Shown here in pieces: positions 21,184 through 41,572 of a stretch of 64,000 nucleotides of DNA; the stretch's first letter is position 1; each line of letters opens with the position of its first letter. The translations under genes and the position numbers were made by a program. The notes under the pieces were generated by a model. The model was given only the letters and a program-made list of their open reading frames with translations. It had not been told where the DNA came from and ran no database searches. Source of the DNA: an uncultured Alphaproteobacteria bacterium (GTDB taxonomy: Bacteria; Pseudomonadota; Alphaproteobacteria; HIMB59); NCBI GenBank assembly GCA_902524245.1, contig CABZCN010000001.1:186001-250000 (forward strand). Direction: 5' to 3'.

Positions 21184-23538
21184 TTAAGGTAAAGGCCCGT
21201 CCTTTAAGAAACCTTTAAGCGTATTTTCCATTATTCTAGAGACATTATTATTGTAATTATTATGTGAAAGACTACCGCACCAAGCCAAAGACCCTGGTGC
21301 AAACATTGCTCCATTGTTAGGTGTTTTATAGTAAATCATATCAGCTCTGACCATTGGATTTTCATGACCACCACCATAGTAACCTCGAACAGCAAAGTGT
21401 ATTTCCTCGTTAACTTGCAACATCATATTAGAGTGATCCTGCGAGCGAGCCAAATAATAAGCATTATGTGGGGTTCCAAATTCTAAGTCGTATCTGTCTA
21501 ACTCTAAACCGGCAGCTCCTCCACCAACTAAACCAAAATCACCAATAACCTCATCTGCTCCAATCCCTTCAAAGATCCATGAACATTCAGGTTTAAAACT
21601 ATCTTCTTCTCTTTTGTAGTATGAAGAAACGTCAAATCCATATGATGTAAAAGTTAAACCACAAACTTTAGAAGGTATTCTTCCTCGAGCTCTCCACATA
21701 CCTCCATATTTACCATCAAAAGCATTATTGTATTCACCTGGATTAGATGTCCATGCTCTAGTTCCGGCCTCACCTTTTCGTACTTCAGTAATATTGGAGT
21801 TGTCTGGATGATATTCACTAATCCAGTAAAATCCATCCGAACCTAAATAAAAACATCTACCACCTTGCATTTGATAGGACTCTAAGGCATCCATATATTT
21901 CTCAGATGAATACTCAGGGTGACTTCCAGTCATCACAACTTTATAACGATTTAATAAATTTATACCTTCATGTTCCAAATCTTCATCTGTAAGAACATCA
22001 AACTCAAAGCCCTTTTCCTCAAGCCAGTCTGTTAAATGTAAGTCAGCATTTAGTTGCCATAATGATGGAGAAAGCCAGTGTCTGTATTTAGGTCTCATAT
22101 TAAGGATTGGTCTAAGTCTTGATGAAATAGATACACCATGTCCATCAGAGTGAAGTGAGTAAGTTGATAAACCGTATTCTCTGTGTTCATTTAAATATAA
22201 ATCTGCAGGTTCTAGCACAGGAACTTTACCTGCGAGTAATTGAGCTACGACAGAATTAGTTCCAAGATTATCATTGGAGTAAGCCATATAACTGTTTGTG
22301 GGTAAGAGAAATAAAATTTTAGCTGTGGCTGTCCCTTTTGGAGGTTTTACACAAAAAGGAATATAATCTTCATTTTCTGACTCTTCTCTTCCATCAACTC
22401 TAAGTCGAGCAGCATACACACCACTTTTCAGACCCTCTGGGATTTTTAATTTAAAATCAACATCCCATCTTGCATCATCAATATCATCATCATGGAAATG
22501 GATAGCACCGTACTCTTCAGGTTTGTGATGGAAAACCATTTCATCCGCTGTCCAGTTATGTCCTGTCATACCTCTGTTTGGCATGTTAATAATAAATCCG
22601 TGGTGATTATTTGGAGAAGTATCAACAATCTTTGTTGAAGCAATGTTTTTGCCAATATTTGCATGAAAGTCCCAAGCGCCTACGACTGTTGACCTCACAG
22701 TGGTATTACACTCATCATAGCTTGATGCAAGTGTTTCGATCTCAGCCTTAGATAAAGCAATATTAGATAATCTAGGTCTATCTATCTTGCCATTAAAAGT
22801 CTTGGTTTGCTCAGGTAATTCAATGGGATGAGGTACCTCTTTAAAATGACCTCCGGAAATGTGCCTACCAGATCTATTATTTAATGTAGTAGCTGCAATT
22901 AACAATGGAGCATCATTAGCGGCAGGTAAAACTGAACTAGTGGTCTCAATAATAGCTGAGGTTTCTTCAATTGGATTCAAAATAGCCATACCTAAACCAC
23001 CATTTGTGGATGTAACCCTGGGTTCTTGGTGAAGGGTAAGCCTTCTTGATTGTGCATCAAAAGTTGCAATTACCAGATACCAGACTTTTCTTAAAAGTTT
23101 TTTTTCTGAGGAGACAGTTACAACCTGAGATCCATCTCCTATTTCTACAGATAAACATCCCTCATCATTAATAAAGAGACCATAGCCTTTTTTTTCTTCT
23201 TCATTAAATTTAGTGAAAATTCCTTGTCTACCTTTATCTGGCGTTGTAGGAAAAATATAAGCTTGCATAGTAAAGCTCTCTAAATTTAAATTATCATGCT
23301 GAGGCATGATGATGTACGATCCACCATGTATTCTCTGGTTTTTCCCTTGATAAGTTCCATTACAACTGGCATCTATTTCAGCTTCTTTATACCCAGGGCC
23401 TTCAGGATTTGTATCACCGTGTATAAGACGGACTAATTGAACTTCATAACTATCATTGTATTCAGCATTAATATAAAATTTAACCTCTTCACCTGGATGA
23501 GCTGAGTACTTATCACTATAACCTGTTATTTTTAACAT
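21184..23538 (-). CDS. N,N-dimethylformamidase large (beta) subunit-like
   Basis: 784 aa, LamG-like N-terminal region and a C-terminal region (LFLLPTNSYMAYSND...MTGSHPEYSSEKYMDALESYQMQGGRCFYLGSDGFYW) typical of the DMFase beta family; paired with the small subunit. Confidence 0.87.
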   Translation of the reverse strand: MLKITGYSDKYSAHPGEEVKFYINAEYNDSYEVQLVRLIHGDTNPEGPGYKEAEIDASCNGTYQGKNQRIHGGSYIIMPQHDNLNLESFTMQAYIFPTTPDKGRQGIFTKFNEEEKKGYGLFINDEGCLSVEIGDGSQVVTVSSEKKLLRKVWYLVIATFDAQSRRLTLHQEPRVTSTNGGLGMAILNPIEETSAIIETTSSVLPAANDAPLLIAATTLNNRSGRHISGGHFKEVPHPIELPEQTKTFNGKIDRPRLSNIALSKAEIETLASSYDECNTTVRSTVVGAWDFHANIGKNIASTKIVDTSPNNHHGFIINMPNRGMTGHNWTADEMVFHHKPEEYGAIHFHDDDIDDARWDVDFKLKIPEGLKSGVYAARLRVDGREESENEDYIPFCVKPPKGTATAKILFLLPTNSYMAYSNDNLGTNSVVAQLLAGKVPVLEPADLYLNEHREYGLSTYSLHSDGHGVSISSRLRPILNMRPKYRHWLSPSLWQLNADLHLTDWLEEKGFEFDVLTDEDLEHEGINLLNRYKVVMTGSHPEYSSEKYMDALESYQMQGGRCFYLGSDGFYWISEYHPDNSNITEVRKGEAGTRAWTSNPGEYNNAFDGKYGGMWRARGRIPSKVCGLTFTSYGFDVSSYYKREEDSFKPECSWIFEGIGADEVIGDFGLVGGGAAGLELDRYDLEFGTPHNAYYLARSQDHSNMMLQVNEEIHFAVRGYYGGGHENPMVRADMIYYKTPNNGAMFAPGSLAWCGSLSHNNYNNNVSRIMENTLKGFLKDGPLP

Positions 23539-23966
23539 TACTCTTCCTCACTATACTCCTCAAGAAGTCTGTTAATTCTTTTTAAAAATATTGCATGTTC
23601 ACATGCCTCTTCAGATGAATAAGAGTCTTCAGTTATTTCAACTGGCTCACCTCTAACTCCTGTTGTTATTCCAACTCTATAATCTTCATGTCTTCTTAAA
23701 CAAACAGTTACAAAACCATTTTCTTTACTTCCTCTTCTTAACTTATCTAATAATGTTTGAAGGTCTTGGCTGTGCTGAATGACGCCATGGTCTCGAGTAG
23801 CAGCCCTTCCAACTGGGGTTGCTCTGTGTTCTTCAATTAAAGATTTTAATTTTTGAGGATCTCTCAACATTTTTAAAATGTATTTTTTAGTAATAAAATC
23901 ATCCGTGTGTTTATGTCCTTTATTTAACTGAACGTTAGAGGGATGCTTGTAGCTGTAATCAGACAT
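23538..23966 (-). CDS. N,N-dimethylformamidase small (alpha) subunit-like
   Basis: 142 aa; RHEDYRVGITTGVRGEPVEITEDSYSSEEACEHAIFLKRINRLLEE; stop/start overlap with the large subunit. Confidence 0.8.
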   Translation of the reverse strand: MSDYSYKHPSNVQLNKGHKHTDDFITKKYILKMLRDPQKLKSLIEEHRATPVGRAATRDHGVIQHSQDLQTLLDKLRRGSKENGFVTVCLRRHEDYRVGITTGVRGEPVEITEDSYSSEEACEHAIFLKRINRLLEEYSEEE

Positions 23967-24071: not shown

Positions 24072-26126
24072 TCATAATGCATAAACGGAAAGTATTACAG
24101 TTGCCACAGCCATACCTATTAATATAAGTGGCCAACCATACCCTCCTCCCATTCTATCAATATAGTTTCCTTGCTCCTCAACATCGTCAGGTGCCAAATG
24201 TTCATCACCATTTAGTATGGGTTTTTTTGGCAAAGTCGATAAGTCCATCTTATTGGCTAAAAACCAAATTAGAAATATACCCGCTACCCACCAAATTATT
24301 TGGTAAGCCCATAGTGAAGGGACTCCCATCACCCAATTATCATAACTTTGATCCGCACTACCAAATATTAAGTTTCCGAAAATTAAACCCGGGCCGATAG
24401 AGAAGAATGCCCAAATTAAAAAGAAGACATAAGCAAGAGATTTTATTTTTTTTCTTGATGGGTGAATACCCATATGTTCATTTAAAAAATTATGAAATGA
24501 CGCTCGATGTTCTTTATCTGTATCATTACTTGCAAATATAGAGGATAAAAAACAAACAATCACATTAAAGAATAAACCCCATAACCCAGAGTAGATTGTT
24601 AGTGGCCATCGCCCCCAAGGAAGAGAATTTCCTGTTAGCTTATGACCAAAAGTTTCAGCTAAAGTTACAAAACCTAATCCGGTGATGAGTCCAAGAATTG
24701 CCCCACCTCTTGTGATCCATTTAAACCAAAGCATTCCAAGTAAAACAGGAAACAATTGGAAACCAAAAGCGATTGCTAATCCACCAAGTAGTATTAGAGA
24801 AGTTTCAAAAAAAGTTGCAAGATACAGTGCCGCTAAGCTTAATAACAACATCGCTAACCTAGCAACTAATAACTCCCTTTTCCATGTAGGGTTACTATCG
24901 ATATATGGTCTATAGAGATCTCTTGCCACCATGCTGCCTGAGGTCATTAAAAAAGCAGATAATGTAGATTGAAGAGCAGCAATTATGGATATTGCTAAAA
25001 ATCCAACAATGATTGGTGAGAGATTACTGAAACTTTCAACAAACACATAAATTAAAGATGATATATTTTGTAGACTTAGCTCAGGGAATATTTGGTTAAT
25101 GGCAAAACCATTTGAATTAACAATACTATTAGCTCCAAGAAGATGTGCTCCTACACCTAATAAAGGGGCGAATATAAATAAAAATATTCCAACAACAGCA
25201 CCTGAACCCCAAACTTGATAAAAATAAAATGACCTCGGTGATTTTACTGAATAGCTCCACATCGAAAATGTAGGAGAAAGCACAATACCCATATAAGAGA
25301 GAGTAAAGGATAAAATCATAACTGCTGTCCAAGGTCCTCCTAATGGGTTGTTTTTTCCAATACCTGCAACCCACTGAATTACACCAGGAACGTTGAAATA
25401 TCCTGAAATATCACCGCCTCCGTAACCTCCAGTAGTTCCCCAAGCTCCGAAAGATATAAAGCTATTCGCCATAGATAGGTCTTCAAAAAAACTTAAACCT
25501 CCTAAGTAATTAAATACACCAACACCAAGTGCTAAGAAAAAAACAAAAAATAACCATGATTGAACAACGCTTACACTCACCATGGGTTTAAATCCACCAG
25601 ATACAATATAAAATAAGACAACAGCAGTTAGTGCCCACATTGCAGAGTCTCTAGTTATTTCACCTCCGCTAATAAACTCTACAACATTACCTGTTGATCC
25701 AATAATTATACCAAGAAATGGAACAGCAAAAAATAATCCGATTATTAGTACTACAATTCTAAGAGTATTACTTTGATAATATTTATAATACATCTCTCCT
25801 GGAGTGATAAAATTAAATTTTCTACTTAGCATCCACTGCCTTTTAAAAAATAGTATACTTCCGAGAGGAATTGTTATTACAATTGCAGCAGTAGCTAGAA
25901 AAGAGTATCCATCTGCATAAATTAATGATGGAAAAGAAATGATAGTTATGCCTGCAAATGTAGTTACTGTTGCAGAGAAAAAGAATACCCAAGGAGATAC
26001 ACTTCTATCTGCTAAATAGTAAGCCTCAGGGGTTTTATTTTTTCTGAGAGTTCTAGCTCCCCAAAAAAGACAAAAGCTTATATATAGGACAAGAAAGAAA
26101 AAAAACCAATAAAGATTAGCGACCAT
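24072..26126 (-). CDS. sodium:solute symporter family protein
   Basis: 684 aa, ~13 hydrophobic segments; AYYLADRSVSPWVFFFSATVTTFAG...; SAFLMTSGSMVARDLYRPYI. Confidence 0.92.
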   Translation of the reverse strand: MVANLYWFFFFLVLYISFCLFWGARTLRKNKTPEAYYLADRSVSPWVFFFSATVTTFAGITIISFPSLIYADGYSFLATAAIVITIPLGSILFFKRQWMLSRKFNFITPGEMYYKYYQSNTLRIVVLIIGLFFAVPFLGIIIGSTGNVVEFISGGEITRDSAMWALTAVVLFYIVSGGFKPMVSVSVVQSWLFFVFFLALGVGVFNYLGGLSFFEDLSMANSFISFGAWGTTGGYGGGDISGYFNVPGVIQWVAGIGKNNPLGGPWTAVMILSFTLSYMGIVLSPTFSMWSYSVKSPRSFYFYQVWGSGAVVGIFLFIFAPLLGVGAHLLGANSIVNSNGFAINQIFPELSLQNISSLIYVFVESFSNLSPIIVGFLAISIIAALQSTLSAFLMTSGSMVARDLYRPYIDSNPTWKRELLVARLAMLLLSLAALYLATFFETSLILLGGLAIAFGFQLFPVLLGMLWFKWITRGGAILGLITGLGFVTLAETFGHKLTGNSLPWGRWPLTIYSGLWGLFFNVIVCFLSSIFASNDTDKEHRASFHNFLNEHMGIHPSRKKIKSLAYVFFLIWAFFSIGPGLIFGNLIFGSADQSYDNWVMGVPSLWAYQIIWWVAGIFLIWFLANKMDLSTLPKKPILNGDEHLAPDDVEEQGNYIDRMGGGYGWPLILIGMAVATVILSVYAL

Positions 26127-26140
26127 AACTCAAACTTGAA

Positions 26141-27004
26141 TTAAGAGTTGTAATCAGTCTTTTCCTTAATAATTCTGAGTGCCTCTAATAAATATACTCT
26201 AAAGACTTCATGGTTTTCACTCATCGGGAAATGACCAATATCTCTCATTTCAATATAAACTCCTCCTTTTATTTGTCTGGCAGTATCTTCTGTTGCTTCG
26301 GGAGGGGTTAGGTAGTCATAAGTACCAGTCAGCATGATAACAGGGCACTTGTGACCATCGATATTTTGAAGCTCATCTCTTAAATCATGATCAACTGAAT
26401 AAAAATGAAGGTCTCCTTTAAAAGCCTCTGATCCTTGAGTGTAATAATGCCAAGTTAACCATCTATCCATATCTGGAGATTGTGGGGCCATTAAATCCCA
26501 AACACCACTACCACACACTTGAGCTGCATTGGCATGAGGATGCCTCCACCAATCAATATAAAAGCCAGGGGAATAATGCGCAGCCTCTACAGGAATGACA
26601 GCTTTAAATTTATTAGGATACTTCAGAGCTAATTGAAGAGCCACGTTTCCTCCAAAAGAAGAACCCATAAATATAGGGTTTTCAAGGTCTAAGGCCTTAC
26701 AAAGTTCTACAATAAAATTACAGTAATGCTCTGCTGTTAATTTGTACTCCTCTTTCCACCATTCTGTATTATGAGGTGGATCTGATTTACCATGTCTTGG
26801 AAGGTCGTAAGCGATAACTTGATAGTTTTGAGTAATTTCTTCATCTTCCAGTAATCCTCTCCACTGATGATTGTGGCATCCAGCAGTATGCTGACATACT
26901 AATGGAGTGCCTTTTCCATTTGAAAGATAAAAGACTTTATACTGTTGACCATCTACCTCGATGGTAACGTATCTACCTATTGGGTCATGATGTTTTACTG
27001 CCAT
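26141..27004 (-). CDS. alpha/beta hydrolase
   Basis: VIAYDLPRHGKSD, nucleophile elbow GSSFGG, LTGTYDYLTPPE, IGHFPMSENHE. Confidence 0.9.
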   Translation of the reverse strand: MAVKHHDPIGRYVTIEVDGQQYKVFYLSNGKGTPLVCQHTAGCHNHQWRGLLEDEEITQNYQVIAYDLPRHGKSDPPHNTEWWKEEYKLTAEHYCNFIVELCKALDLENPIFMGSSFGGNVALQLALKYPNKFKAVIPVEAAHYSPGFYIDWWRHPHANAAQVCGSGVWDLMAPQSPDMDRWLTWHYYTQGSEAFKGDLHFYSVDHDLRDELQNIDGHKCPVIMLTGTYDYLTPPEATEDTARQIKGGVYIEMRDIGHFPMSENHEVFRVYLLEALRIIKEKTDYNS

Positions 27005-27029: not shown

Positions 27030-27419
27030 TCATACTGGGACTCCTGATTGTCTTAGCAATTCAAATTGAACAGTAAAGTTTCTAAGATTTTGCATTAAGA
27101 CTAAATGATTGCCCTCGATTTTAAGGTCTTCTCTAAATGAGGCTGCATAGATACCATGAAACATAGGTTTTGGAACAGGCTTTGCAAACTCTCTCCATGT
27201 TTGCTCTGATGCCCTTAATGCAAAGTCATATGGATCTAAACCTCCAGGGTTGGTATTAATATTTTTTACCTTTCCATCATGCATCTCGATAATTACTTTC
27301 ACACTACCCATGTCGAAAAGAAATGAACAAGTATAATATTTAGCCATCGCTTTTATGGTTTCATCTTTTTCAGTAAGCTCTTTATATTTTTTTGCCCAGG
27401 ATTTTACATCTATACTCAT
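27030..27419 (-). CDS. SCP2 sterol-binding-like small protein (tentative)
   Basis: 129 aa; CSFLFDMGSVKVIIEMHDGKV...LKIEGNHLVLMQNLRNFTVQFELLR has SCP2-like layout. Confidence 0.5.
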   Translation of the reverse strand: MSIDVKSWAKKYKELTEKDETIKAMAKYYTCSFLFDMGSVKVIIEMHDGKVKNINTNPGGLDPYDFALRASEQTWREFAKPVPKPMFHGIYAASFREDLKIEGNHLVLMQNLRNFTVQFELLRQSGVPV

Positions 27420-27428
27420 GTTTTATAC

Positions 27429-29417
27429 CTATTTCTTTTTCCTGGGTGTCTTTGTGGCTTGTTCATCAAATCTCATATGCTTGTCCTTCTTAGGATCATC
27501 GTAGTCACCTAAAATATTCCTGATATTACTTGCCTCACCGGGCGACATACCAATTTCTTTTAAAAGACTATCTAAGAACGGCTGTTGTGCTCTATATCGA
27601 AGAGCAGAATTCACAACATTATCTGCTAAAGATCCTTTTTTGGAATATCCACCTGAGGACGCAGAGGGGTTATCAGCGTTGCCGCTTCCTTCAGCACCTC
27701 CTCCTTGACTAAATCCAGGTAATCCATTTACATCGACAACTTTAATTGAGTCAATGTTTTGCATTGGTCTAACCCATTCTCTAATAATACCCTCAATTTT
27801 TTCAGCGAGTTTTTGTCTAAGTGCACTTCTTCTACTTGCATCACTTCTAGCATTTTCTGCTTCATTAAGGGCTTTTTTGCCAGCTGCTTCAATTTCATAT
27901 CTAATTTTTGCAGCCATCGATGCTAACTTTTCTCTCTCAGCATTTTTACTAGCGTCTATTACTCCAAGAGCTTTTGTCTTCTCAGCTTGTTCAACATCTC
28001 TAATGGTGTTTACTTTTTCCTCAGCTTCTACAGCCTTAGCGCGAGCATTTTCTTCTTCCATTTTAGTTTTTAAGACTGACTTAGATTTTTCTAGAACTTC
28101 CATTTGTTTTTGCTTTTCTTCAATTTCTATTCTTTTTGCCTTTTCAATATCTAAGACTCTTGTCTCTTGCTCAGCAGCAATTTTGAACGCATCAACATTT
28201 TTCTGTTGAGCAGTTTTTGCATTTTTAATTTGCTCCTCAGCCATAATATAAGCCTCTTCAGACTCATACCTTTTTCTAGCTTCTTCTTTTGCTGTTTGAG
28301 CTTTTTCCTCAGCAAGTTTGATATCAACTGATCTTTGTTTTTCTAGACGACTGAATTCAACATCTCTTTCTAATTCAAGAATAGTTTTTTCTGTCTCAAT
28401 ATCTTTTTGTTTAATCTCGATAGAAGTTTGTTGTTTAAACTCATTTTGTTCTTTTCTTCTTTTCTCAATTTCTTGGATAAGTTTAGTTTCTTGTAAACTT
28501 TTTTCCATCTCAACAAAGTCTTTCTTGCTAATCTTTGCAATCTCAATATCTTTTTCTGAAGAGATTTCAGCCAGCTCAGACTCTTTGTCTTTCTCAGCTT
28601 TTGTTTTTACTGTCTCAGTATTTTCAATAGCTCTTTGTTGTTCGATTTCACGTTTTTGTTGATACTTTGAAAATTCTTCCTCTTTTTCAATTTCAAGAGT
28701 TTGCTTGATAGACTGGAGGTTTTTATTTCGAATACTTACCTCTGTATCTTTCTCAATATCATTTCTTTTCTTTTTACGTGACTGAGTAAATTCTGTTATT
28801 TGAGTTAAACCCTCAGCATCAAATGTATTTGAAGGGTCGAATACACCCACGGGTGCTTGGTTAAGAGATGTCAATGAAACAGTCTCTAACTCCAAACCAG
28901 TGTGCTTAATAGCTTCTTCAACATGAGCTGCAACATTTTTAATGTACTCAGATCTATTCTCTTGAATTTCATCAAGGCTCATTTTTGCGGCTACAACACC
29001 TAGTCCATCAACAAATCGACCTTGAACAAGCTCCTTTAAATGATCAGGCTCTAATGTTCTATTTCCCAATGTTTGCGCGGCTATTGAGACTGCTTCAGTT
29101 GTAGGAGCTACTCTTACATAGAATTCAGCCGTTACTTCTGCCCTCATTCTATTTTTTGTAATAAAAGATTTACTGCCGTTTCGTTGAACCTCTATACAAA
29201 GAGTTTTCATACCCACTGAGGTAATGTTATGAATAATAGGTAAAACGAAGGCACCTCCGCTGATCACAACTTGTTCACCACCCATACCAGTTCTAACAAA
29301 CGCTATTTCCTTTGAGGAACGCCTGTACAGCCAATGTAGCAAGTAAACTATAATTGCTATTGCTAACGCTATTAAGATTATTATTGCAATAATATCTGCA
29401 CCACTAGTAATGTTCAT
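27429..29417 (-). CDS. flotillin family (SPFH) protein
   Basis: N-terminal TM, SPFH domain (GGAFVLPIIHNITSVGMKTLCIEVQ...LVQGRFVDGLGVVAAKMSLDEIQENR), long Glu/Lys-rich coiled coil. Confidence 0.93.
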   Translation of the reverse strand: MNITSGADIIAIIILIALAIAIIVYLLHWLYRRSSKEIAFVRTGMGGEQVVISGGAFVLPIIHNITSVGMKTLCIEVQRNGSKSFITKNRMRAEVTAEFYVRVAPTTEAVSIAAQTLGNRTLEPDHLKELVQGRFVDGLGVVAAKMSLDEIQENRSEYIKNVAAHVEEAIKHTGLELETVSLTSLNQAPVGVFDPSNTFDAEGLTQITEFTQSRKKKRNDIEKDTEVSIRNKNLQSIKQTLEIEKEEEFSKYQQKREIEQQRAIENTETVKTKAEKDKESELAEISSEKDIEIAKISKKDFVEMEKSLQETKLIQEIEKRRKEQNEFKQQTSIEIKQKDIETEKTILELERDVEFSRLEKQRSVDIKLAEEKAQTAKEEARKRYESEEAYIMAEEQIKNAKTAQQKNVDAFKIAAEQETRVLDIEKAKRIEIEEKQKQMEVLEKSKSVLKTKMEEENARAKAVEAEEKVNTIRDVEQAEKTKALGVIDASKNAEREKLASMAAKIRYEIEAAGKKALNEAENARSDASRRSALRQKLAEKIEGIIREWVRPMQNIDSIKVVDVNGLPGFSQGGGAEGSGNADNPSASSGGYSKKGSLADNVVNSALRYRAQQPFLDSLLKEIGMSPGEASNIRNILGDYDDPKKDKHMRFDEQATKTPRKKK

Positions 29418-29444
29418 ACCTATTTATCACCTCCTAAGTTGATG

Positions 29445-30146
29445 TTACTGTCCATTAACTCTCATGTCTTGTATTGCTGCTTTGTAAATTATTAAACCAA
29501 AAACTATTTTATTTAAAAAGTCTGCTAAATTATAAATCACATTAACACTGTTGGGATCAATACCCCCACCCAAATGCTCTATGAAATATCCCATTGGATA
29601 TATAGCCCATCCAATTGTTATAATAAGTCTGTTCGAGAAGAAAACCATTTGTACATTTTCGTTTCCGCATCTAGCATTTGCTCTTCCAGCCTCTCCAACA
29701 TATAGCTCACCAAGGATGTACAACCATCCAGCCAACCAAACAATGAAACCTAATGTCTTGCTCATATAACCCGCTGCACCTAAGAAACCTGCTACAACAA
29801 AAACTAAAGTTCCAACCAATAATCTCCAGAACATGCCTTGTTTAACTTTGACAACTGACATAAGCATTGCATAAAAAATAAGTACAAGCATTGGAAAGTT
29901 AAGAAACCAATCTATATATCTTAATAAAGTTGGGGCGGTGCCGCTGACTACCCAGAGATTTTTTACGAAGAAATAATGTATAGAGGACATCAAACATACA
30001 ACAGCTATCATTGTCATCGGTGTATGAAATCTCGAGCTTACTTTGCTGCGCTCAAAAAAGAAAAATAGGGTGGCACCAATCATGCCAACAGAAATTAACC
30101 AGAAAGACCCCCCTACAATGTCGTAAGGGAGAAGCATTTTATTCAT
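29445..30146 (-). CDS. microbial rhodopsin of the proteorhodopsin family, flotillin-associated type with D-N-I motif
   Basis: seven hydrophobic segments; helix C RYIDWFLNFPMLVLIFY (R76, D79, N83, I90), helix B His57, helix G NLADFLNKIVFGLIIYKAA with Schiff-base K213 and D209. Confidence 0.95.
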   Translation of the reverse strand: MNKMLLPYDIVGGSFWLISVGMIGATLFFFFERSKVSSRFHTPMTMIAVVCLMSSIHYFFVKNLWVVSGTAPTLLRYIDWFLNFPMLVLIFYAMLMSVVKVKQGMFWRLLVGTLVFVVAGFLGAAGYMSKTLGFIVWLAGWLYILGELYVGEAGRANARCGNENVQMVFFSNRLIITIGWAIYPMGYFIEHLGGGIDPNSVNVIYNLADFLNKIVFGLIIYKAAIQDMRVNGQ

Positions 30147-30270: not shown

Positions 30271-31662
30271 TTATATTTGCTCCCTTATATGGGGTGCTCT
30301 TGAATAAAGAGCAACAAGAGGCAGAATAAGAAGACCAAATATAAATTGTTGCCCCTCAAAACTTAAACCTAGTCCAGCCAAAAATGTACTAATGACTTGA
30401 AGTGCAAGAACACCGATTACTGTAAATCCGTATCCTCCATATCCACCTAATAAGGAAGTTCCTCCTACAGCCACAGCTGCCACTGTTAAAAATAAATATT
30501 GATCACCTACACCAATGAACCCTCCACCACTCCAACCCAGTAACATTGCTCCAGTTGCTGCAGAAGTAAACCCACTAATGACATAAACTCCAACCCAATA
30601 TGCTCTCTCAGAAATTGATAATCTATCAGCAGATAACCTTTTTCCACCAACAGCATATAAGTTTCTTCCCCACTTAGTGTGTCTTAGTCCAACAATTAAC
30701 AAAATTGAAATCAATATCCAAATTAAGATAACTGGAGGTATTGGAAGACCAAAAAATTTTCCATTTAATGACGCTAAGTTCTTTAACCAGTCTGGAACTA
30801 CACCAAACACAGTTCCACCTGTAACTGTAGGTAGTGACACCAATATCTGTACTCCGCCTACTACCATAAACCCAACTCCAAGCGTGACTATTAATGATTG
30901 TCCTTGGAGATTAAAACTTATCAAACCATTGAAAAGCCCGACAATCGTACCAAAAGCAAGAATAACTATAAACGCAAGCCAAGGAGGGACTCCAAGTGAA
31001 ATAAGTGACATTAATCCTAAATTAGTTGCGCCAATTAAAAATGGTATTGATAAATCTAGGCCGCCTAACATCACAACTAATGTTTGTCCAATAGTTGCAA
31101 GCCCTAAGAAAGAGGCAAAAACCAACATAGATTTAATATTCTGCAATGATAAGAAGCCATCAATAGAAACTGATCCAATTATAAAAAGACCAACTAACAC
31201 GGCGACTCCTATTATCACGCTCTTATTAATATTTAAAAATTTGTATGCAAGAAATGCTAAGATTAAGAAACCTAATAGTATGATTGCTGATACGACTGTT
31301 CTACCTGAGAAGAACCCGGGTACCAAAAAACACAGTAGTATAAAAAGACCTAAAAGAAGTAAAAATCCCGTAACAGCTATCCAGTTCTTTGCAATAAGGT
31401 CCCAAAAAAGGCTTCTTTTACTTGTGGTTTCAGTAGTTTCAGGAGGTTGAGATCCATCCTCCTTTACTAAAGATCGATAAGACCATCTAACTAAGAAAAA
31501 ATGCCATCCCCAAAGAATAATGGCAACAACAGCTACAGAGTAAAATGCAACCTGTATCCAATCAGTTCTATCTACGTAACCAAGAACTGCGGTACCTATC
31601 CCAGCAGCAACAGCAAAAAGAATTCCAAGTCCTTTTAAAAAATTATGAGTTCTTTTCTCCAT
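30271..31662 (-). CDS. ABC transporter permease (RbsC/CUT2-like) with N-terminal extension
   Basis: C-terminal ~300 aa match RbsC-type permeases (GTSLLGGYGGYGFTVIGVLAL); ~150 aa extra hydrophobic N-terminal region. Confidence 0.88.
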   Translation of the reverse strand: MEKRTHNFLKGLGILFAVAAGIGTAVLGYVDRTDWIQVAFYSVAVVAIILWGWHFFLVRWSYRSLVKEDGSQPPETTETTSKRSLFWDLIAKNWIAVTGFLLLLGLFILLCFLVPGFFSGRTVVSAIILLGFLILAFLAYKFLNINKSVIIGVAVLVGLFIIGSVSIDGFLSLQNIKSMLVFASFLGLATIGQTLVVMLGGLDLSIPFLIGATNLGLMSLISLGVPPWLAFIVILAFGTIVGLFNGLISFNLQGQSLIVTLGVGFMVVGGVQILVSLPTVTGGTVFGVVPDWLKNLASLNGKFFGLPIPPVILIWILISILLIVGLRHTKWGRNLYAVGGKRLSADRLSISERAYWVGVYVISGFTSAATGAMLLGWSGGGFIGVGDQYLFLTVAAVAVGGTSLLGGYGGYGFTVIGVLALQVISTFLAGLGLSFEGQQFIFGLLILPLVALYSRAPHIREQI

Positions 31663-31665
31663 TTA

Positions 31666-33939
31666 CTAAACTTTTCTATCTTCTGATAGACCTCCCCATT
31701 TTTCAAGTCCTTCTTGAGATTTTAATTTTATTTTATAAACACCAAACGCTTGCCATATCAGAGGCGAAATAGCTATTCCAATTGCAGTAATTAAAATCAT
31801 TTTCCAATAAGGATAACCAATTGCGAAGAACATCGCTGACCATGTTAATGCAGCTATACTTAAAATAGCAATGTAAGGTCTGAATCTAGCAAATGATATT
31901 TTTGCTCCCATTGTTAAATATGTAAAAAATTGAAATACAAATATTGCAAATATAATTAGAGCTGCTTCTTTAAGCCAAGTAATATCACTTGTGATAAGTT
32001 CTCCTCGTATAGGTCTTGTATAGTTAATTGATGATGTATCGCCAACAATTAATTCTGTAATAATTGGAGAGTAAAACTTACTTCCATCATCAGTAATAAT
32101 TGTTCCAGAAGGTGAAGCTAAAAAGTAAACAGCGAGTATTGCTAATACACCAAGGAAAATAATGAAAACATTATTCAAATTGATATTCGAGAAAAGAGTT
32201 GGTGCCGTGAGTAAAAAAAGTAAAAATAAAATTAGTATTACAGCGTATCCATCTATTCCAAAGAAACTCTGTCTATTTGACTCAATTCCGTAATAAGATA
32301 TTGCAGCAAATACAATAAATGAAATTGCTATTGCAAATAATACCAATGTTTGTGTTTTGATTTCTTTTCTAAATCTTGGCATAGCAATTATTACTATCGC
32401 AGATGTAAAGAAAACTATTCCTCCTAAAGTTGCTACAGCGTAAGCGAGGCCAACCAAAGCACTCGAGGAAGATGAAAAATCAGGTAATCCTGCACCAACT
32501 CTTAGATATTCAGATGTAAAATACTGAGGAGCATAATTTAAAATATATTGTAAGTTTGTGCCCAAATCAGCGTTAACGAAATAAGCCTCTCTCGTGCCAC
32601 TCCATACACAACCGAAGAAAATAACAATTGCTGCAATAATAAAAGACACTGTTGGCCCGTCTCTATGTTTTACAAGTAAATAAACAAGATAAATCAGGGA
32701 TGCTATTCCAATAGCAATAAACATCCACACTGTAGAATTTCCACCCTCAGCACATGCTTTACCTGTGATTAGACAATCACTTCCAGATTCAAGAGCTTTT
32801 TCAAAAATCTCAGCATCTTTAGATTTACCTCCAAAACCTCCCACAGTCCCTCTAGTGACTTGATCAAATTTCATATGAATTTGAACAGCAGCAGCACTTA
32901 ATGTTCCAATAATAAAAAATACAAAAACTGATAAATTTTTAAATGCTTTTTGAATATAGGGAAGTGCAATAAGTATTAAAAGAGAAGCCACCAATACCGC
33001 ACCGTATGATAAGTCTGTAACGAAACTTTGAAATCTTTCAAACCTGAAAGTTGATAGAATAAAATTTATCAAATAAATGTTAACTGAACCTAGAATAGCT
33101 CCAAACGCACCACCTCTTCCACCAATTAAACTTGACCCGCCTAATACAAGTGCTGTGACTGCCATCAATGTATAAGTAGTACCTTGAGTTGGGTCTCCGG
33201 AACCAATTAAACCTGTAAATGCAATAGCTGCGAGTGCAGCGTATACTCCGCCAATAATATGAGCGCCAATTCTTACAACGTAAATTCTCACTCCACTTGT
33301 GTAAGCAGACTTTTCATCTGAACCCATTAATTTTAAATGTTGCCAGTAAGCAGTATGAGTTAGTGCGTACCAAATAAGTGTCGAGAAAATTAAAAGTATT
33401 AGTGTGGGTTGTACTACCTCTGTTCCAGCACTCCATGATAACATCCAATCAGGTGCTCTTCCTCCTGGTCTTGGTAAAATAACTAAATTTATACCAGAAA
33501 AAGCAAGAAACATACTTAAGGCAACTATTATTGGTTGAACTCTTATAAAAATTACGATTAAGGCATAAAGAAATTGGTAAATTACTCCTATTGCAAGAGC
33601 ACATATGAAATATGCAACTGGCGATTGAATATAGCCTGCAGCATAAAGTTGTATTGTCGTTACATTTATAAACCCAATAAGCGGTCCTATTGATAAATCG
33701 ACTGTCACTCTGCCGGCTAAAGCCAACGCGGTAAGAGCATAAGTAGCAAGAATAAGGGGTGTTGAAACCATAATTGCAGTTCCAATACCCGAGCCTGAAA
33801 TTATTTGTGGTCCTCTAATCATTGCAAAAATCATTAGGGCAAAAAATATAAATATTGGAACGATTAAGTATTTTGTTGACTGAGGATCAGAACCCGGAAT
33901 TTGAGAGGGTTTTATTGCTGCTACAAGTTGATTAACCAT
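31666..33939 (-). CDS. oversized ABC transporter permease: RbsC-like domain plus ~400 aa C-terminal membrane extension
   Basis: residues 1-340 RbsC-like (GGSSLIGGRGGAFGAILGSVNIYLINFIL); the remainder has many further hydrophobic segments. Confidence 0.87.
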   Translation of the reverse strand: MVNQLVAAIKPSQIPGSDPQSTKYLIVPIFIFFALMIFAMIRGPQIISGSGIGTAIMVSTPLILATYALTALALAGRVTVDLSIGPLIGFINVTTIQLYAAGYIQSPVAYFICALAIGVIYQFLYALIVIFIRVQPIIVALSMFLAFSGINLVILPRPGGRAPDWMLSWSAGTEVVQPTLILLIFSTLIWYALTHTAYWQHLKLMGSDEKSAYTSGVRIYVVRIGAHIIGGVYAALAAIAFTGLIGSGDPTQGTTYTLMAVTALVLGGSSLIGGRGGAFGAILGSVNIYLINFILSTFRFERFQSFVTDLSYGAVLVASLLILIALPYIQKAFKNLSVFVFFIIGTLSAAAVQIHMKFDQVTRGTVGGFGGKSKDAEIFEKALESGSDCLITGKACAEGGNSTVWMFIAIGIASLIYLVYLLVKHRDGPTVSFIIAAIVIFFGCVWSGTREAYFVNADLGTNLQYILNYAPQYFTSEYLRVGAGLPDFSSSSSALVGLAYAVATLGGIVFFTSAIVIIAMPRFRKEIKTQTLVLFAIAISFIVFAAISYYGIESNRQSFFGIDGYAVILILFLLFLLTAPTLFSNINLNNVFIIFLGVLAILAVYFLASPSGTIITDDGSKFYSPIITELIVGDTSSINYTRPIRGELITSDITWLKEAALIIFAIFVFQFFTYLTMGAKISFARFRPYIAILSIAALTWSAMFFAIGYPYWKMILITAIGIAISPLIWQAFGVYKIKLKSQEGLEKWGGLSEDRKV

Positions 33940-33944
33940 TATAA

Positions 33945-35447
33945 TTAGTCAAAATAGACGACTTTGATACCCCCTCTGTCAGACTGCGATCTTCCATGAC
34001 CCACTTTAAGCTTGTCTGTTTCAACAATTTTAATTCTCTTTGAGTCCAAATCAATATTTTTAGCAAAACCATTTTTAAAAGATGTCTTACTAATAAGAGT
34101 GTTTAAATTGTTTTCGATATATTTAGTATTGTGTTTACCTTCTATGAAGTTTTTGTCTTTGAGAAGACAAATTAAAAAGGGAATGTTTGTCTTAATGCCC
34201 TCAATCTGGGTGCCTTCTAAAAACTTTATTAATTTGGATATAGCATCATCTCGAATTAAGTCGTGAGATATAATTTTTCCTATCATCGGATCATAATAGA
34301 AACTTACTTCATCTCTTTCATCGTATCCCCAATCTAATCTAATGCCATTTGGTATTTTAGGAAATTTTAATTTGGTTATTTTCCCTGGAGATGGTAAGAA
34401 ATTTTGAGAAGGGTCCTCTGCGTAGACTCTGCATTCAATTGAATGTCCATAAGTTTTAATTTTATTTTGATTTAAAAATTTATTTTTTCTATTAAAAGCA
34501 AAATTTATTTGCATGGAAATTAAATCATTATTTGTCACTAACTCTGTAACAGGATGTTCAACTTGAATTCTTGTATTCATCTCAAGAAAATAATATTTCA
34601 TTTCTTGGACATCATATATAAACTCTACAGTACCTGCTCCTTCGTATTTTACATCAGAAGATAATTTTACAGCGGCTTGAGCCATATTGTTAATTAATTC
34701 CCTATCTACTTCTGGTGCCGGAGACTCCTCAATTATCTTTTGATATCTTCTTTGCATAGAGCAATCTCTTTCGAACAGATGGACAGATCCTTTTGCACCA
34801 AATCCAAAAACTTGTATTTCAATATGTCGGGCGTTGGTGATAAATTTCTCAATAAAAATATCTCCATTACCAAAAGATTTTGCAGCAAGATTACTAGTTT
34901 TTTCAATTGCACTAGCTAAGTCTTTAAAATTTTGGACGACGCTCATGCCTATCCCCCCACCACCAGCACTTGATTTTACAAGTAAAGGGTAACCTATTGC
35001 TTCACATTTTGTCTTAAGTTGTTCATCACTTAATTTATGAACATTATTTATACCTGGACATATAGGTATATTGGAATTTAGGGCTAATTCACGAGCAATA
35101 TCCTTATTTCCCATTGATTTTATTGATTTTGGTTTAGGGCCAATCCATGTGATACCTCTGTTTATGACCTCTTGAGCAAAAGTGTCGTTTTCTGATAAAA
35201 AACCAAAACCAGGATGAATAGCATCCACATTTGATTTTGTAGCTATTTCTAAAATCTTATTGTAAGAAAGATAACTTTCCTGAGCTTTACTAGGTCCAAT
35301 ATAATAAGACTCGTCAGATAATCTTACATGCTTTGAATTCTTATCTGCATCTGAATAAACAGCTACAGATTTGTGACCTAATATTTTACAACTTTTTATA
35401 ATTCTATTTGCTATTTCACCGCGATTAGCAATTAAAATTTTTTTCAT
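33945..35447 (-). CDS. biotin carboxylase subunit (AccC-like)
   Basis: MKKILIANRGEIANRIIKSCKILG...KSSAGGGGIGMSVV...HIEIQVFGFGAKGSVHLFERDCSMQRRYQKIIEESPAP...FLEMNTRIQVEHPVTE. Confidence 0.95.
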   Translation of the reverse strand: MKKILIANRGEIANRIIKSCKILGHKSVAVYSDADKNSKHVRLSDESYYIGPSKAQESYLSYNKILEIATKSNVDAIHPGFGFLSENDTFAQEVINRGITWIGPKPKSIKSMGNKDIARELALNSNIPICPGINNVHKLSDEQLKTKCEAIGYPLLVKSSAGGGGIGMSVVQNFKDLASAIEKTSNLAAKSFGNGDIFIEKFITNARHIEIQVFGFGAKGSVHLFERDCSMQRRYQKIIEESPAPEVDRELINNMAQAAVKLSSDVKYEGAGTVEFIYDVQEMKYYFLEMNTRIQVEHPVTELVTNNDLISMQINFAFNRKNKFLNQNKIKTYGHSIECRVYAEDPSQNFLPSPGKITKLKFPKIPNGIRLDWGYDERDEVSFYYDPMIGKIISHDLIRDDAISKLIKFLEGTQIEGIKTNIPFLICLLKDKNFIEGKHNTKYIENNLNTLISKTSFKNGFAKNIDLDSKRIKIVETDKLKVGHGRSQSDRGGIKVVYFD

Positions 35448-36229
35448 TTCTTATCAACGATATAAGGCATTTTGGTATGATTGCCGTTTGAAGTTTTTTG
35501 TGGAATTTTTTTATCAGAGGAAATTTTTTCTCTCAGAGCCTTTAAGATTTCTACAGCATTAGGAGTGTCAGAGTGGACACAAATTGTTTCACATCCTACA
35601 ACTACATCGTTTCCTTGAACAGTTTTAACTTTATTTTCATTCATTGCTCTTAAACAACGCTCCACAGCTCTATCAGTTGGATAATATTTATTTCGACCCT
35701 TGGCTATAACCAAATAACCTGTTTCATCATATTCCAAGTCAGAGTAAAATTCTCCGTAAAATTTTACCCCTCTTTCTTTGTATACTTTTTCGTGAAAGGT
35801 ATTAACCATTCCAAAAATACCAACATTAAAAATCTCAGCTGCGTCAGCAATTCCATGAGCCACATCTTCCTCTTTCGCGGAGACACCATATAAAGATCCA
35901 TGAGGTTTGATATGGTTTAATGGCATTCCATACTCATCTAGAAAGGCTTTGATGGCACCAGTTTGATACATTACAAGATTTTTGATTTCATCACGTTTCA
36001 TTTTCATCGGCCTTCTTCCAAATCCTACTAAGTCAGGATAGGCAGGGTGCGATCCAACTTTCACATCATATTTTTTTGCAAGCTCTACAGTTTTCCTCAT
36101 TGTGTTTGGGTCTGAGGCGTGAAACCCACAGGCTACATTAGCAGCATCTATATAAGGCATTATTTCTTCGTCATCTGCGAAGGAGTAAATACCAAAACCC
36201 TCACCCATATCGCAATTCAAATCGACCAT
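35444..36229 (-). CDS. pxpA: 5-oxoprolinase subunit A / LamB-YcsF family
   Basis: MVDLNCDMGEGFGIYSF...ANVACGFHASDPNTMRKTV...KVGSHPAYPDLVGFGRRPM...IKPHGSLYG. Confidence 0.94.
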   Translation of the reverse strand: MVDLNCDMGEGFGIYSFADDEEIMPYIDAANVACGFHASDPNTMRKTVELAKKYDVKVGSHPAYPDLVGFGRRPMKMKRDEIKNLVMYQTGAIKAFLDEYGMPLNHIKPHGSLYGVSAKEEDVAHGIADAAEIFNVGIFGMVNTFHEKVYKERGVKFYGEFYSDLEYDETGYLVIAKGRNKYYPTDRAVERCLRAMNENKVKTVQGNDVVVGCETICVHSDTPNAVEILKALREKISSDKKIPQKTSNGNHTKMPYIVDKK

Positions 36230-36376
36230 GAATAATAAATTCCTCTCTTTTATAATTTACAGAAAATCAGGCTTTTATGTGAAAATCTTTTCCACATGTT
36301 GGAACAATTTTGCTTATATTTTTCAGAATATAGGTATTATTATAGACACTTATATATAAGTAAGGAGGATAAAACT

Positions 36377-37537
36377 ATGACATTGCTTAAAAAGTTCATA
36401 GCTATTTTAGCTGTTAGTTTTGTCGGTGTCGCAGGTAACTTAAATGCTGACATTTTAGACGAAATTCCAGCTGATATTAGAGACTTCGTTTATAATCCTG
36501 ACTTTATGGATCCTAACCAACCGCTTGGTGAAAGTGTATACAGAAATTGGAAAAGTGATAGACCACTACCTTGGACTATCGGTTATGCAAGTTCTTACGC
36601 AGGAAATCTATGGAGAAAAGGTGTGATGGAGAGATTGTACGGTGACTATTTACCAAAAATGAAAGCAGCAGGTATTCTTAATGATATCGTTGTTACACAA
36701 TCTAACCTAAAAGACGCGGTTCAAATTCAACAAATGAGACAGTTAACTGATCAAGGAGTTGACGGATTAATAGTCTGTTGCTCAAATCCTGTTGCATTAA
36801 ATCCAACAATTGAGTATGCGTACGGAAAAGGTGTTCCTACTGCATCAATGACAGGATACTTAACTTCAGAATATGCTATCAGTACATCTGTTAACTATAA
36901 ATTAACCGGATATTATATTGCACAATGGTTAGCAGAAACTATTGGTGGTGAAGGTAATGTTGTTATCATGGAAGGAATTCCTGGAACATCTGCATCTGAC
37001 TCACAGCACCAAGGTATGCTAGATGGATTTGCAGAATATCCAGATATTACCGTTGTTGCTGAAATTGCACACATGTGGACACCACAAATTGCTCAAGCTG
37101 AACTTCAAAAATGGTTATCAGCCAATACAATTGAAGTTGACGGATTTGCTGTTCAGTCTTCAGGAGAGTCCGGAGCACTTAACGCTCTAGAATCATCTGG
37201 AAGACCAATGGTGCCTATGGCTTTGGGTGGAGAAATTGGTGCATTCTGCTATTGGAGAAATAACCCAGACTTTATCGACAGAGCGGTCTATGCTTGGCCT
37301 CCAGGAGATGATGCAGAGTTTGCAATGAACGTTCTTTTAAGAACTATGTATGGTCAGGGTCTTAAAATCCAGTCTATCTTAGTTCCTCCATATGAAGAAG
37401 ATGTTGAGACTATTCAGTCTTTTGTTCCTGAAGATTGTGACAGAAACTCAAGTGAGTTTAGAACTGTTGGAATTGAAAACTGGGCAAGTGATGAATACCT
37501 AAATAATTTCTTCGATCGTGGAGAAGCATTACTTTAA
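36377..37537 (+). CDS. RbsB-type periplasmic substrate-binding protein
   Basis: AAGGAGG RBS then MTLLKKFIAILAVSFVGVAGNLNA signal peptide; GVDGLIVCCSNPVALNPTIEYAYGKGVPT. Confidence 0.88.
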   Translation: MTLLKKFIAILAVSFVGVAGNLNADILDEIPADIRDFVYNPDFMDPNQPLGESVYRNWKSDRPLPWTIGYASSYAGNLWRKGVMERLYGDYLPKMKAAGILNDIVVTQSNLKDAVQIQQMRQLTDQGVDGLIVCCSNPVALNPTIEYAYGKGVPTASMTGYLTSEYAISTSVNYKLTGYYIAQWLAETIGGEGNVVIMEGIPGTSASDSQHQGMLDGFAEYPDITVVAEIAHMWTPQIAQAELQKWLSANTIEVDGFAVQSSGESGALNALESSGRPMVPMALGGEIGAFCYWRNNPDFIDRAVYAWPPGDDAEFAMNVLLRTMYGQGLKIQSILVPPYEEDVETIQSFVPEDCDRNSSEFRTVGIENWASDEYLNNFFDRGEALL

Positions 37538-37552
37538 TAATTTAAGTAATTA

Positions 37553-39334
37553 ATGAATGAAGAAAAAACTTTGGACAGTGCCCCAAACGGGAATGGGGCA
37601 CAGTCTAGCTCCTCTAAAGTCGGAGGGGATATCTATGTTCAAGATGCATCAAAATCCTTTGGTGTAACAAAAGCCCTAAACGGAGTTAATTTCAAAGCTA
37701 ACTTTGGTGAAATCCACGCCATTGTTGGTGGTAATGGATGTGGTAAAAGCACATTGGCAAAGGTTATCTCAGGAGTTTTACCTTTAGATAAAGGAAAGGT
37801 CTCTATTATGGGGCATTCACCCAATTCCCCAATTGAAGCTCAAAGAATTGGTATCGCAACAGTTTTTCAAGAAGTGATGATAGCTGAAGAGGCTACTGTT
37901 TATGAAAATTTATTTATTGGATATGACTCTTTTTTTGGGAAAAAATTAGCACATCGAGATAGGGTCGAAAAAGCTGCCTCTATAATGTTAGAGCTATCAG
38001 GTGAATTTGTCGATCCATATACAATAGCAAGTCAATTATCGCTTGGTATGAAAGCTTGGATAACTATTGGTAGAGCATTTTTAAGAAATCCTAAAGTACT
38101 AATTTTAGATGAGTCATCAGCTGCGCTTGATTTTGACTCTACAGAGAGACTTTTTGCAAAAATGAGAACATTAAGAGATCAAGGTGCAGCAATTTTTATA
38201 GTAACTCACAGAATTGCAGAGCTAGTTAGAATAAGTGATAGAGCAACGGTTATGAGAGATGGTGTTGATGTTGGAGTTTTAGCAGGAGATGAAATTACTG
38301 AAAAAAATCTTCTCGGACTAATGACGGGTGATAAAAAATTTTCTACAGCATCAGAAATAAAAGCTACACCTCCAAACTCAATCTCAGATGAAATAGTTTT
38401 ATCTGCTAAAGATTTAAAGGTTTGGGATAATGGAGATTTTATTAACTTTGACCTACCAAAAGGTGAGATACTTGGAGTTACAGGACTTGATGGACAAGGA
38501 CAAGATAATTTTGTTAAGGCTCTGGCAGGTATTGATCAACCACTTAGCGGAGAAGTAATTGTCAAACAGTCTGATGAGGAACGAGAAAGAACAAAGAAAG
38601 ATTACACAACTGTAAATAGCTTGTTAGATGCAAAGAAAAGTGGAGTTGGATACGTATCTGGGGATAGAAAAAAAGAGGGTATTTTTCCTAACATGAGCAT
38701 CTATGAAAATATGGTCATACCTTTATATAAAGGAAAACAAGCTAAAACATCAGGTGGATTTATTGGATTTATTAAATGGATGGAATTAAACGGTATTTTT
38801 GATTGGGAAGTAGAAAGGTTAAGTATTAAAACAGGTCCAAAGAATAATCTAATTACCTCATTGAGTGGGGGAAATCAGCAAAAAGTCATGATTGCCAGAG
38901 CTTTCACAACAACTCCAAAAATACTGATACTTAACGATCCAGCGAGAGGTATTGATGTTGGCGCAAAGCGAGACTTATATAAACACTTAAGAATTTTTGT
39001 AAATGAAGGTGGTACAGCGATATTTCTATCAAGTGAACTCGAGGAATTTATAGGACTATGTCATCGAGTTTTAGTTTTCAGGGATGGGAGTATATTTGAG
39101 ACATTTGAGAAAGAGGATATCAATCCAAATACTATCCTTGAAGGAATGTTTGGTCATACTCAAAAGAAATCTAATAATAATTTATCAACTGGGCAAAATT
39201 CCGATCACAAAGCTAATAATAATCCAATAATTCAAAATAAAATTATTAAACCGACAGTGCCTACAAATGTCAAAGTAGTAGATTTTACAGATAAACCTAA
39301 GAGCAATGAAAAAATTAAAGTTAAATATTTTTAA
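37553..39334 (+). CDS. sugar-type ABC transporter ATP-binding protein (RbsA-like, two NBDs) with N/K-rich C-terminal tail
   Basis: Walker A GGNGCGKST; second domain YVSGDRKKEGIFPNMSIYEN, LSGGNQQKVMIARAF, DPARGIDVGAKRDLY. Confidence 0.93.
   Translation: MNEEKTLDSAPNGNGAQSSSSKVGGDIYVQDASKSFGVTKALNGVNFKANFGEIHAIVGGNGCGKSTLAKVISGVLPLDKGKVSIMGHSPNSPIEAQRIGIATVFQEVMIAEEATVYENLFIGYDSFFGKKLAHRDRVEKAASIMLELSGEFVDPYTIASQLSLGMKAWITIGRAFLRNPKVLILDESSAALDFDSTERLFAKMRTLRDQGAAIFIVTHRIAELVRISDRATVMRDGVDVGVLAGDEITEKNLLGLMTGDKKFSTASEIKATPPNSISDEIVLSAKDLKVWDNGDFINFDLPKGEILGVTGLDGQGQDNFVKALAGIDQPLSGEVIVKQSDEERERTKKDYTTVNSLLDAKKSGVGYVSGDRKKEGIFPNMSIYENMVIPLYKGKQAKTSGGFIGFIKWMELNGIFDWEVERLSIKTGPKNNLITSLSGGNQQKVMIARAFTTTPKILILNDPARGIDVGAKRDLYKHLRIFVNEGGTAIFLSSELEEFIGLCHRVLVFRDGSIFETFEKEDINPNTILEGMFGHTQKKSNNNLSTGQNSDHKANNNPIIQNKIIKPTVPTNVKVVDFTDKPKSNEKIKVKYF
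37574..37605 (+). promoter_or_regulatory. stem-loop at the start of the ATPase ORF, just 3' of the SBP gene
   Basis: GAC-A-GTGCCCC-aaacgggaat-GGGGCAC-A-GTC. Confidence 0.6.
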
Positions 39335-39339
39335 ACTCA

Positions 39340-40602
39340 ATGGTTCAAGAATATAAAAATACAGATTTAGATTTATTTCAGAAAATAGATTTAACCAATC
39401 CTAAAGATGAGTTATTAAAAAAAAATAAGATAGGTTCATCGCAACAAGAAAACAATAACATCAAATTTAATTATTTAAATCACGAGATTTCAAAATTTGA
39501 AAATTTAGAGAGTCATTTATCTCAAGATAAATCAAAAAAACTTGATGATATTTTATTCTCTCAAATCGATGTTGATGATTATGCTAGTTTCAAAAATATG
39601 TATCCTCATAATATTTCTCAACCTAAATTAAATGTAAATAAGCTTTCTGTAAAAAAACATATAAACGAGGATGGCTCTTATCCCAATTTAGTTTCAAAGA
39701 ATACAAAAGATAAAACCTCAGAGATATTTCAGGGAATTTACCCTGAGCCAAAGTTTTTACCAGGTGGTGATAAGTATTTATTAATAGAATTTGGTAATGT
39801 GATGAATTTAGAATTGAACTTTAAAGCTCAGGGGCTATCAAACTTAATTAAGACAGCAAATATAAAGGGAGTTTACGAAACACTCCCATGTTTTGCCTCG
39901 ATGATAGTTCATTACAATCCAGATGATATCGGCTATCAAGATTTAATTAATGAATTGAAATCATTGCTTAAAGATATGAAAGATAATGATGATACTGTTG
40001 TAAATAGCAGACTTTTTCATTTCCCAACTGTCTATCTTGACAAATGGACTAAAGAAGCAATTGAAGACTATATAGCTAAAATCACAATTAAAAAGCCAGA
40101 TCCTGAGTTCATTACAGAATTAAATCAATTAGATGATGTAAATCATTTTGTTAGAGTTCACTCTGGAACTGAGTATTGGGTGGCTTCGCTTGGTTTTTGG
40201 CCTGGTTTACCATTTACAATGCCTCTTGACCCTAGGTGCAAATTAACCGCTCCAAAGTATAACCCACCTAGAACGTGGACACCAAAAGGAACCGTGGGCA
40301 TGGGAGGATCATCCACAGCTATTTATCCTGATAGGCTACCTGGAGGTTATCAAATTTTTGGCAGAACTCCTGTACCCATTTGGGATCCTGACAAGAATTT
40401 TGATGTTTTCAAAGATAGTATTTGTCTATTTAGGCCAGGAGATAGAATTAAATTTGTGCCTTGTGATTATGATGAGTTTGAAATGATTGAAAAAAAAGTC
40501 GAAGATAAATCATATCGATATGATTTAATTGAAGAGCATAAATTTTCTATCAAAAAATATAAAAACTGGTTGTCTAAACTAGATTATAATAAGAAGTTTT
40601 AG
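39340..40602 (+). CDS. pxpB: 5-oxoprolinase subunit B (carboxyltransferase subunit B/KipI family) with ~130 aa N-terminal extension
   Basis: core from ~39733: YLLIEFGNVMNLELNFKAQGL...VHSGTEYWVASLGFWPGLPFTMPLDPR...TPKGTVGMGGSSTAIYPDRLPGGYQIFGRTP. Confidence 0.92.
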   Translation: MVQEYKNTDLDLFQKIDLTNPKDELLKKNKIGSSQQENNNIKFNYLNHEISKFENLESHLSQDKSKKLDDILFSQIDVDDYASFKNMYPHNISQPKLNVNKLSVKKHINEDGSYPNLVSKNTKDKTSEIFQGIYPEPKFLPGGDKYLLIEFGNVMNLELNFKAQGLSNLIKTANIKGVYETLPCFASMIVHYNPDDIGYQDLINELKSLLKDMKDNDDTVVNSRLFHFPTVYLDKWTKEAIEDYIAKITIKKPDPEFITELNQLDDVNHFVRVHSGTEYWVASLGFWPGLPFTMPLDPRCKLTAPKYNPPRTWTPKGTVGMGGSSTAIYPDRLPGGYQIFGRTPVPIWDPDKNFDVFKDSICLFRPGDRIKFVPCDYDEFEMIEKKVEDKSYRYDLIEEHKFSIKKYKNWLSKLDYNKKF

Positions 40603-41571: not shown

Positions 41572-41572
41572 T

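Follow-up and report, generated by a model that had tools for sequence, protein, structure and literature searches.

The rhodopsin gene in the window, the 64,000-nucleotide stretch of HIMB59 DNA analyzed here, encodes a FArhodopsin (FAR) of the HIMB59 (DNI) type, an already described kind of protein, and its residues and gene neighborhood tip the balance, by our estimate, toward a non-pumping, probably retinal-free, pentameric membrane protein that acts with flotillin. It belongs to a described kind because a 2023 paper had already reported the gene pair, the DNI motif in HIMB59, the gene cluster and the additional proteorhodopsin and had suspected that the retinal pocket is reduced. The HIMB59/AEGEAN-169 FArhodopsin (Haro-Moreno et al. 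2023; PMC10308929) has the same DNI motif, a flotillin gene directly downstream and a second, DTE proteorhodopsin, and the window gene pair does not differ from it. New here are the hosts in the distant family f66, the alternative pocket fillings (W137 or E120), and the recognition of an SCP2-like protein and a hydrolase as the most conserved operon members. The bacteria that carry FArhodopsins include some of the most abundant in the ocean.

The 233-aa protein is encoded on the minus strand (29445-30146) and matches PF01036 at 5.4e-32. In an alignment with GPR, in which the numbering was checked, R76, D79, N83 and L87 (the last at the tuning site) correspond to R94, D97, T101 and L105, respectively, and I90, A124, D209 and K213 correspond to E108, E142, D227 and K231. 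The pump carboxylates E108 and E142 are hence replaced by Ile and Ala, the former being the proton-donor carboxylate of pumping proteorhodopsins, whereas the Schiff-base lysine is kept in the D79-N83-I90 background. A preliminary description of this DNA had read R76, D79, N83, I90, D209 and K213 correctly, and its assignment to the FArhodopsins is upheld, DNI being one of the FArhodopsin motifs DTT, DTL and DNI and the one published for HIMB59 (PMC10308929). The N terminus is shortened, with a 23-column gap relative to the proteorhodopsin of the same genome. K213, D79, R76 and D209 are conserved across the FARs, save for one SAR11 sequence (L046) in which residue 79 is Glu and not Asp. Inside FAR lineages, dN/dS amounts to 0.02-0.07 where dS is measurable, synonymous sites being near-saturated in several HIMB59 pairs, which indicates strong purifying selection; the FAR gene is retained, not in decay.

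The rhodopsin lies directly upstream of the gene for a 662-aa flotillin (27429-29417, minus strand; Flot PF15975 at 2.1e-29, plus Band_7), on the same strand and across a spacer of 27 nt (29418-29444), as previously described. The rhodopsin-then-flotillin order is kept in 49 of 49 loci from genome contigs and in all six loci from f66, which argues that the adjacency did not arise by chance; its absence in relatives, named beforehand as a finding that would contradict the assignment, was encountered in none of these 55 loci. We know of no flotillin neighbor for green or blue proteorhodopsins. The spacer measures 16-30 nt across the loci examined (with L035 left out) and 72 nt in f66. In L035, from a HIMB59-type genome, a break close to the beginning of the FAR gene disrupts the reading frame, possibly as a result of sequencing error. 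Co-transcription of FAR and flotillin has been reported in SAR11, the only taxon for which it is published (PMC10308929); a scan for promoter and terminator patterns around the window pair gave no usable result. Besides flotillin, the only SPFH proteins found in the genome are the products of two neighboring Band_7 genes at C1:39-40 kb, which we infer to be HflK/C.

The pair is embedded in a larger cluster. Downstream of flotillin, the minus strand encodes a 129-aa SCP2-like protein (27030-27419; so named after the published annotation, its SCP2 match of 0.043 being below the cut-off), an alpha/beta hydrolase (26141-27004), a sodium:solute symporter of the SSF type (24072-26126) and an N,N-dimethylformamidase large-subunit-like protein (DMFA2_C; 21184-23538), preceded by a 142-aa protein (23538-23966) that is probably its small subunit, judging from its position. 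On the other side, a 463-aa ABC permease (BPD_transp_2; 30271-31662) directly upstream of the rhodopsin is accompanied, also on the minus strand, by a 757-aa ABC permease with a long C-terminal extension (31666-33939), a biotin carboxylase-like protein (33945-35447) and a PxpA (LamB/YcsF) family protein (35444-36229). The plus strand then carries the periplasmic substrate-binding protein (36296-37537) and ABC ATPase (37553-39334) of the importer, followed by carboxyltransferase C/D and A/B subunits and a biotinyl carrier protein (39340-41791). The SCP2-like, symporter, permease, biotin carboxylase, dimethylformamidase and PxpA genes are likewise the contents of the published FAR cluster (PMC10308929). 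The operon core common to HIMB59, SAR11 and f66 consists of rhodopsin, flotillin, the SCP2-like protein and the hydrolase. Judged by percent identity between the window proteins and their SAR11 and f66 counterparts, the hydrolase (81-87%) is the most conserved member of the operon and the SCP2-like protein (75-79%) the next, ahead of rhodopsin (53-69%) and flotillin (47-64%). Importer genes adjoin the FAR pair in HIMB59 and f66 and were not found beside it in the SAR11 loci, and the operon genes scanned include no transducer gene.

In an unrooted 49-row tree, the FARs of HIMB59, SAR11 and f66, together with PsFAR, split from 28 proteorhodopsins with support of 100/99, so that the window protein falls outside the proteorhodopsin group and not, as its first description had allowed for as contrary evidence, inside the canonical clade. 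When rooted with a bacteriorhodopsin fragment, the FARs form one group inside the proteorhodopsin family, with f66 branching first (100/99). Since the branch to the outgroup is very long and the AU test does not reject a topology that joins f66 to the proteorhodopsins (p 0.306), the branching order near the root is unsure; the place of the window protein is unaffected by it. Green and blue proteorhodopsins (7b03, 4kly and 8cnk) share the fold, the oligomer type and the R-D-D-K core with the window FAR but differ in having an open retinal pocket and both E108 and E142. PsFAR (9r21; mutant 9r23), on the same side of the tree, is 58% identical to the window FAR and has a TM-score of 0.94 to its AlphaFold model, built from a 13-sequence alignment (pLDDT 86); it differs in its D-T-M motif and in carrying H84, S85 and E120, in contrast to F84, P85 and G120 plus W137 in the window protein. 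The SAR11 DTT-T rhodopsin (Olson et al. 2018; PMC5864233) likewise has an adjacent flotillin and has lost E108 and E142, the SAR11 FARs compared being 69% identical to the window protein, but it carries T83, T90, W116, Q120, F180 and H184 and lacks adjacent importer genes.

The window genome (1.37 Mb, 94.6% complete), which its near-identical single-cell relatives and the DNI motif suggest to be of the HIMB59/AEGEAN-169 type, encodes one further type-1 rhodopsin (C1:447312-447956), which is a proteorhodopsin with the DTE motif and Gln105. Downstream of it lie a gene of the amine-oxidoreductase family, occupying the position of crtI, a gene of the phytoene synthase family, a lycopene cyclase gene and blh, the last with a model match of 5.9e-55; the second proteorhodopsin with crt and blh genes for which the preliminary description proposed to search is thus present, in a crtI-crtB-crtY-blh arrangement. 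Among 10 genomes of the genus that are at least 90% complete, FAR was found in eight and proteorhodopsin in nine, as assigned by score. In one HIMB59 genome (G780, 94% complete), a rhodopsin scores as FAR and no match to proteorhodopsin was obtained, which could reflect incompleteness. In another (G759, with 4% contamination), a weaker rhodopsin match of 265 aa (C23:6404-7033; 6.9e-27) has a score typical neither of FARs nor of the usual proteorhodopsins.

A reduced retinal pocket of FArhodopsin has already been suspected (PMC10308929), and the present comparison would locate the reduction at the end that accommodates the retinal ring. Volumes were summed over six ring-end sites (GPR 102, 105, 134, 138, 155 and 159), the sums being taken over aligned residues and not measured as cavities. 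Standard residue volumes were used, and the pocket positions are those that we take to correspond to the bacteriorhodopsin pocket. For these aligned residues, the sum is 795-818 A3 in proteorhodopsins, 1062 A3 in the window-type HIMB59 FARs, 950 A3 in the other HIMB59 type, 966-1016 A3 in SAR11 FARs, 886 A3 in PsFAR and 684 A3 in f66. The changes in the pocket include V102F, M134F and G155W or G138E, at sites that are invariant in 28 of 28 proteorhodopsins. The fillings are F84, F116 and W137 in the window protein; F84, F116 and E120 in sister genomes; F84, W116 and Q120 in SAR11; and H84 and E120 in PsFAR. Within HIMB59, two residue sets can be distinguished, namely L87/G120/W137 in 13 of 17 distinct sequences and Q87/E120/G137 in the other four, and since these sets differ, the ring site appears to be filled from helix E in the W137 type and from helix D in the E120 type. 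In f66, V84 and M116 are kept and W141 is replaced by Gly, leaving the ring end open and larger than that of proteorhodopsin.

The SAR11 FARs (L037-L051) additionally carry W197F and P201H (Phe at FAR position 180 and His at 184), whereas each of the 28 proteorhodopsins in the comparison has, at these positions, a Trp and a Pro from helix F lining the retinal. A specific release of the pocket from constraint was considered and rejected: proteorhodopsin-invariant sites are changed at five of 17 positions in the pocket and at 17 of 51 elsewhere (Fisher p=1). Because pocket sites changed no more often than other such sites, the pocket looks rebuilt, not abandoned. The same sites figure in the cryo-EM structures of PsFAR (released on 2025-07-23), of which 9r21 is the wild type and 9r23 is the double mutant H84V/E120G, in which two ring-end sites are set to the proteorhodopsin residues; judging from these residues, the mutant was presumably designed with the pocket in mind. 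Each entry contains five chains, fitting a pentamer, and our literature search found no paper describing PsFAR. Residues 84, 116, 120, 137 and 141 would predict which FARs are retinal-capable, namely those of f66 in principle and those of HIMB59 and SAR11 not.

The f66 FARs came to light when 386 genomes of the class were searched; a search of the family then located them in six genomes of the genus g66 (G185, G279, G358, G386, G387 and G388; loci L059-L061, L086-L088 and L090-L095). These alphaproteobacterial genomes measure 4.0-4.5 Mb, and the locus has a GC content of about 65%. A LacI-type regulator gene on the opposite strand is followed by genes for the substrate-binding protein, the ATPase, two permeases, rhodopsin, flotillin, the SCP2-like protein and the hydrolase. 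FAR is the sole PF01036 match (E 1e-3) in these genomes, with no coexisting proteorhodopsin. The published pattern, in which FAR always occurs with proteorhodopsin and, in the sea, in streamlined taxa only (PMC10308929), does not extend to the f66 group. A sample of the phylum (399 genomes) yielded no further FAR hosts.

With the model that detects the blh of the window genome, no blh match was obtained in 11 genomes of the f66 family, nor was a phytoene synthase found in the FAR-bearing ones. Each of the six FAR genomes has three PF00494 hits; in G358, for which typing was done, two of them are HpnD and HpnC, beside HpnE, all above cut-offs, indicating hopanoid synthesis. The third SQS_PSY hit was set aside as a phytoene synthase candidate, matching no CrtB model at 1e-10; it sits near genes that read from their translations like secD and secF. 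Without blh and with the PF00494 hits of G358 typed as hopanoid or non-CrtB, home-made beta-carotene is an unlikely source of retinal in f66. Certainty that f66 is retinal-free is weakened by a carotenoid-oxygenase-family protein present in all six FAR genomes; the closest PDB entry to the one copy tested (G387) is an apocarotenoid-15,15'-oxygenase. Retinal might be made there from scavenged apocarotenoids or scavenged directly, and retinal binding is possible in f66 because the ring end is open and an apocarotenoid-oxygenase-like protein is present. In this genus, FAR function can be considered apart from proteorhodopsin and from retinal made by the cell itself.

In the explanation toward which we lean, the window FAR would be a proteorhodopsin paralog that has probably lost pumping; with Phe84, Phe116 and Trp137 in place, the ring would no longer fit, and the protein would work mostly without retinal and light. 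It may be a pentameric seven-helix membrane component that is produced together with flotillin and works in a flotillin microdomain alongside the neighboring importer, the SCP2-like protein and the hydrolase. The most concrete activity available would be light-independent phospholipid scrambling or lipid handling, by analogy with other bacterial opsins, such as the opsin pentamer for which retinal-independent scramblase activity has been reported (PMC12805836). K213 might be retained with R76, D79 and D209 because the four form a buried network of charges or because they hold a carboxylate ligand, for example a fatty acid; in retinal-free proteoopsin, decanoate forms a salt bridge with the retinal lysine (PMC11322631), which gives a reason to keep K213 without retinal. 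The filled ring end, the loss of E108 and E142, flotillin in every locus, the strong constraint and an f66 operon in genomes where neither blh nor phytoene synthase was found all support this explanation, while the literature searched holds no report of scrambling or carboxylate binding by a FAR. Against it stand the four conserved residues, for which retinal binding would be the simplest explanation, the lack of a specific release of the pocket and, in f66, the open ring end and the apocarotenoid-oxygenase-like protein.

The four conserved residues, the crt and blh genes beside the proteorhodopsin of the same genome and the presence of FAR genes in photic-zone bacteria (PMC10308929) are the points in favor of the roles proposed by the discoverers, a retinal-binding photosensor or a partner that forms a mixed complex with the coexisting proteorhodopsin and modulates it; we regard this as unlikely, given the filled ring end, the lack of a transducer among the operon genes scanned and, for the modulator, an f66 FAR with no other rhodopsin to modulate. 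A ligand-binding regulator, whose former retinal pocket would bind a carboxylate such as a fatty acid at K213 and which would control the adjacent ABC importer or the hydrolase through flotillin, is a tentative, minority alternative: the proteoopsin decanoate, the directly adjacent importer genes of HIMB59 and f66 and the enlarged f66 pocket speak for it, but no ligand is known to date, the importer is absent beside FAR in SAR11 loci and a scaffold role needs no ligand. A slow or inefficient outward proton pump appears highly improbable; Asp79 and the Schiff-base Lys are kept, and pumping in E. coli is on record for a DTQ-Q proteorhodopsin that has no carboxylate donor (PMC5864233), but in the window FAR both E108 and E142 are lost, N83 replaces T101 and the ring site is filled. 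The caution of the preliminary description on function was well placed, and of the options that it listed, the pocket evidence favors weak or no retinal binding over pumping. More speculatively, and with considerable doubt on our part, FARs in general could be constitutive, light-independent opsins for lipid handling (scramblase-like) or ligand binding in flotillin microdomains, with a pocket that is open in f66 hosts not making retinal and plugged in retinal-making lineages, perhaps to avoid capturing retinal.

Two further features of the operon genes were observed. The extension of the window permease at 31666-33939 runs for about 430 residues past the permease domain and is conserved in f66 (57-60%). 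In family f82, an SCP2-like and hydrolase gene pair (L136:854-2110), on an 8.8 kb contig without rhodopsin or flotillin, adjoins genes that read like fabI and aroC.
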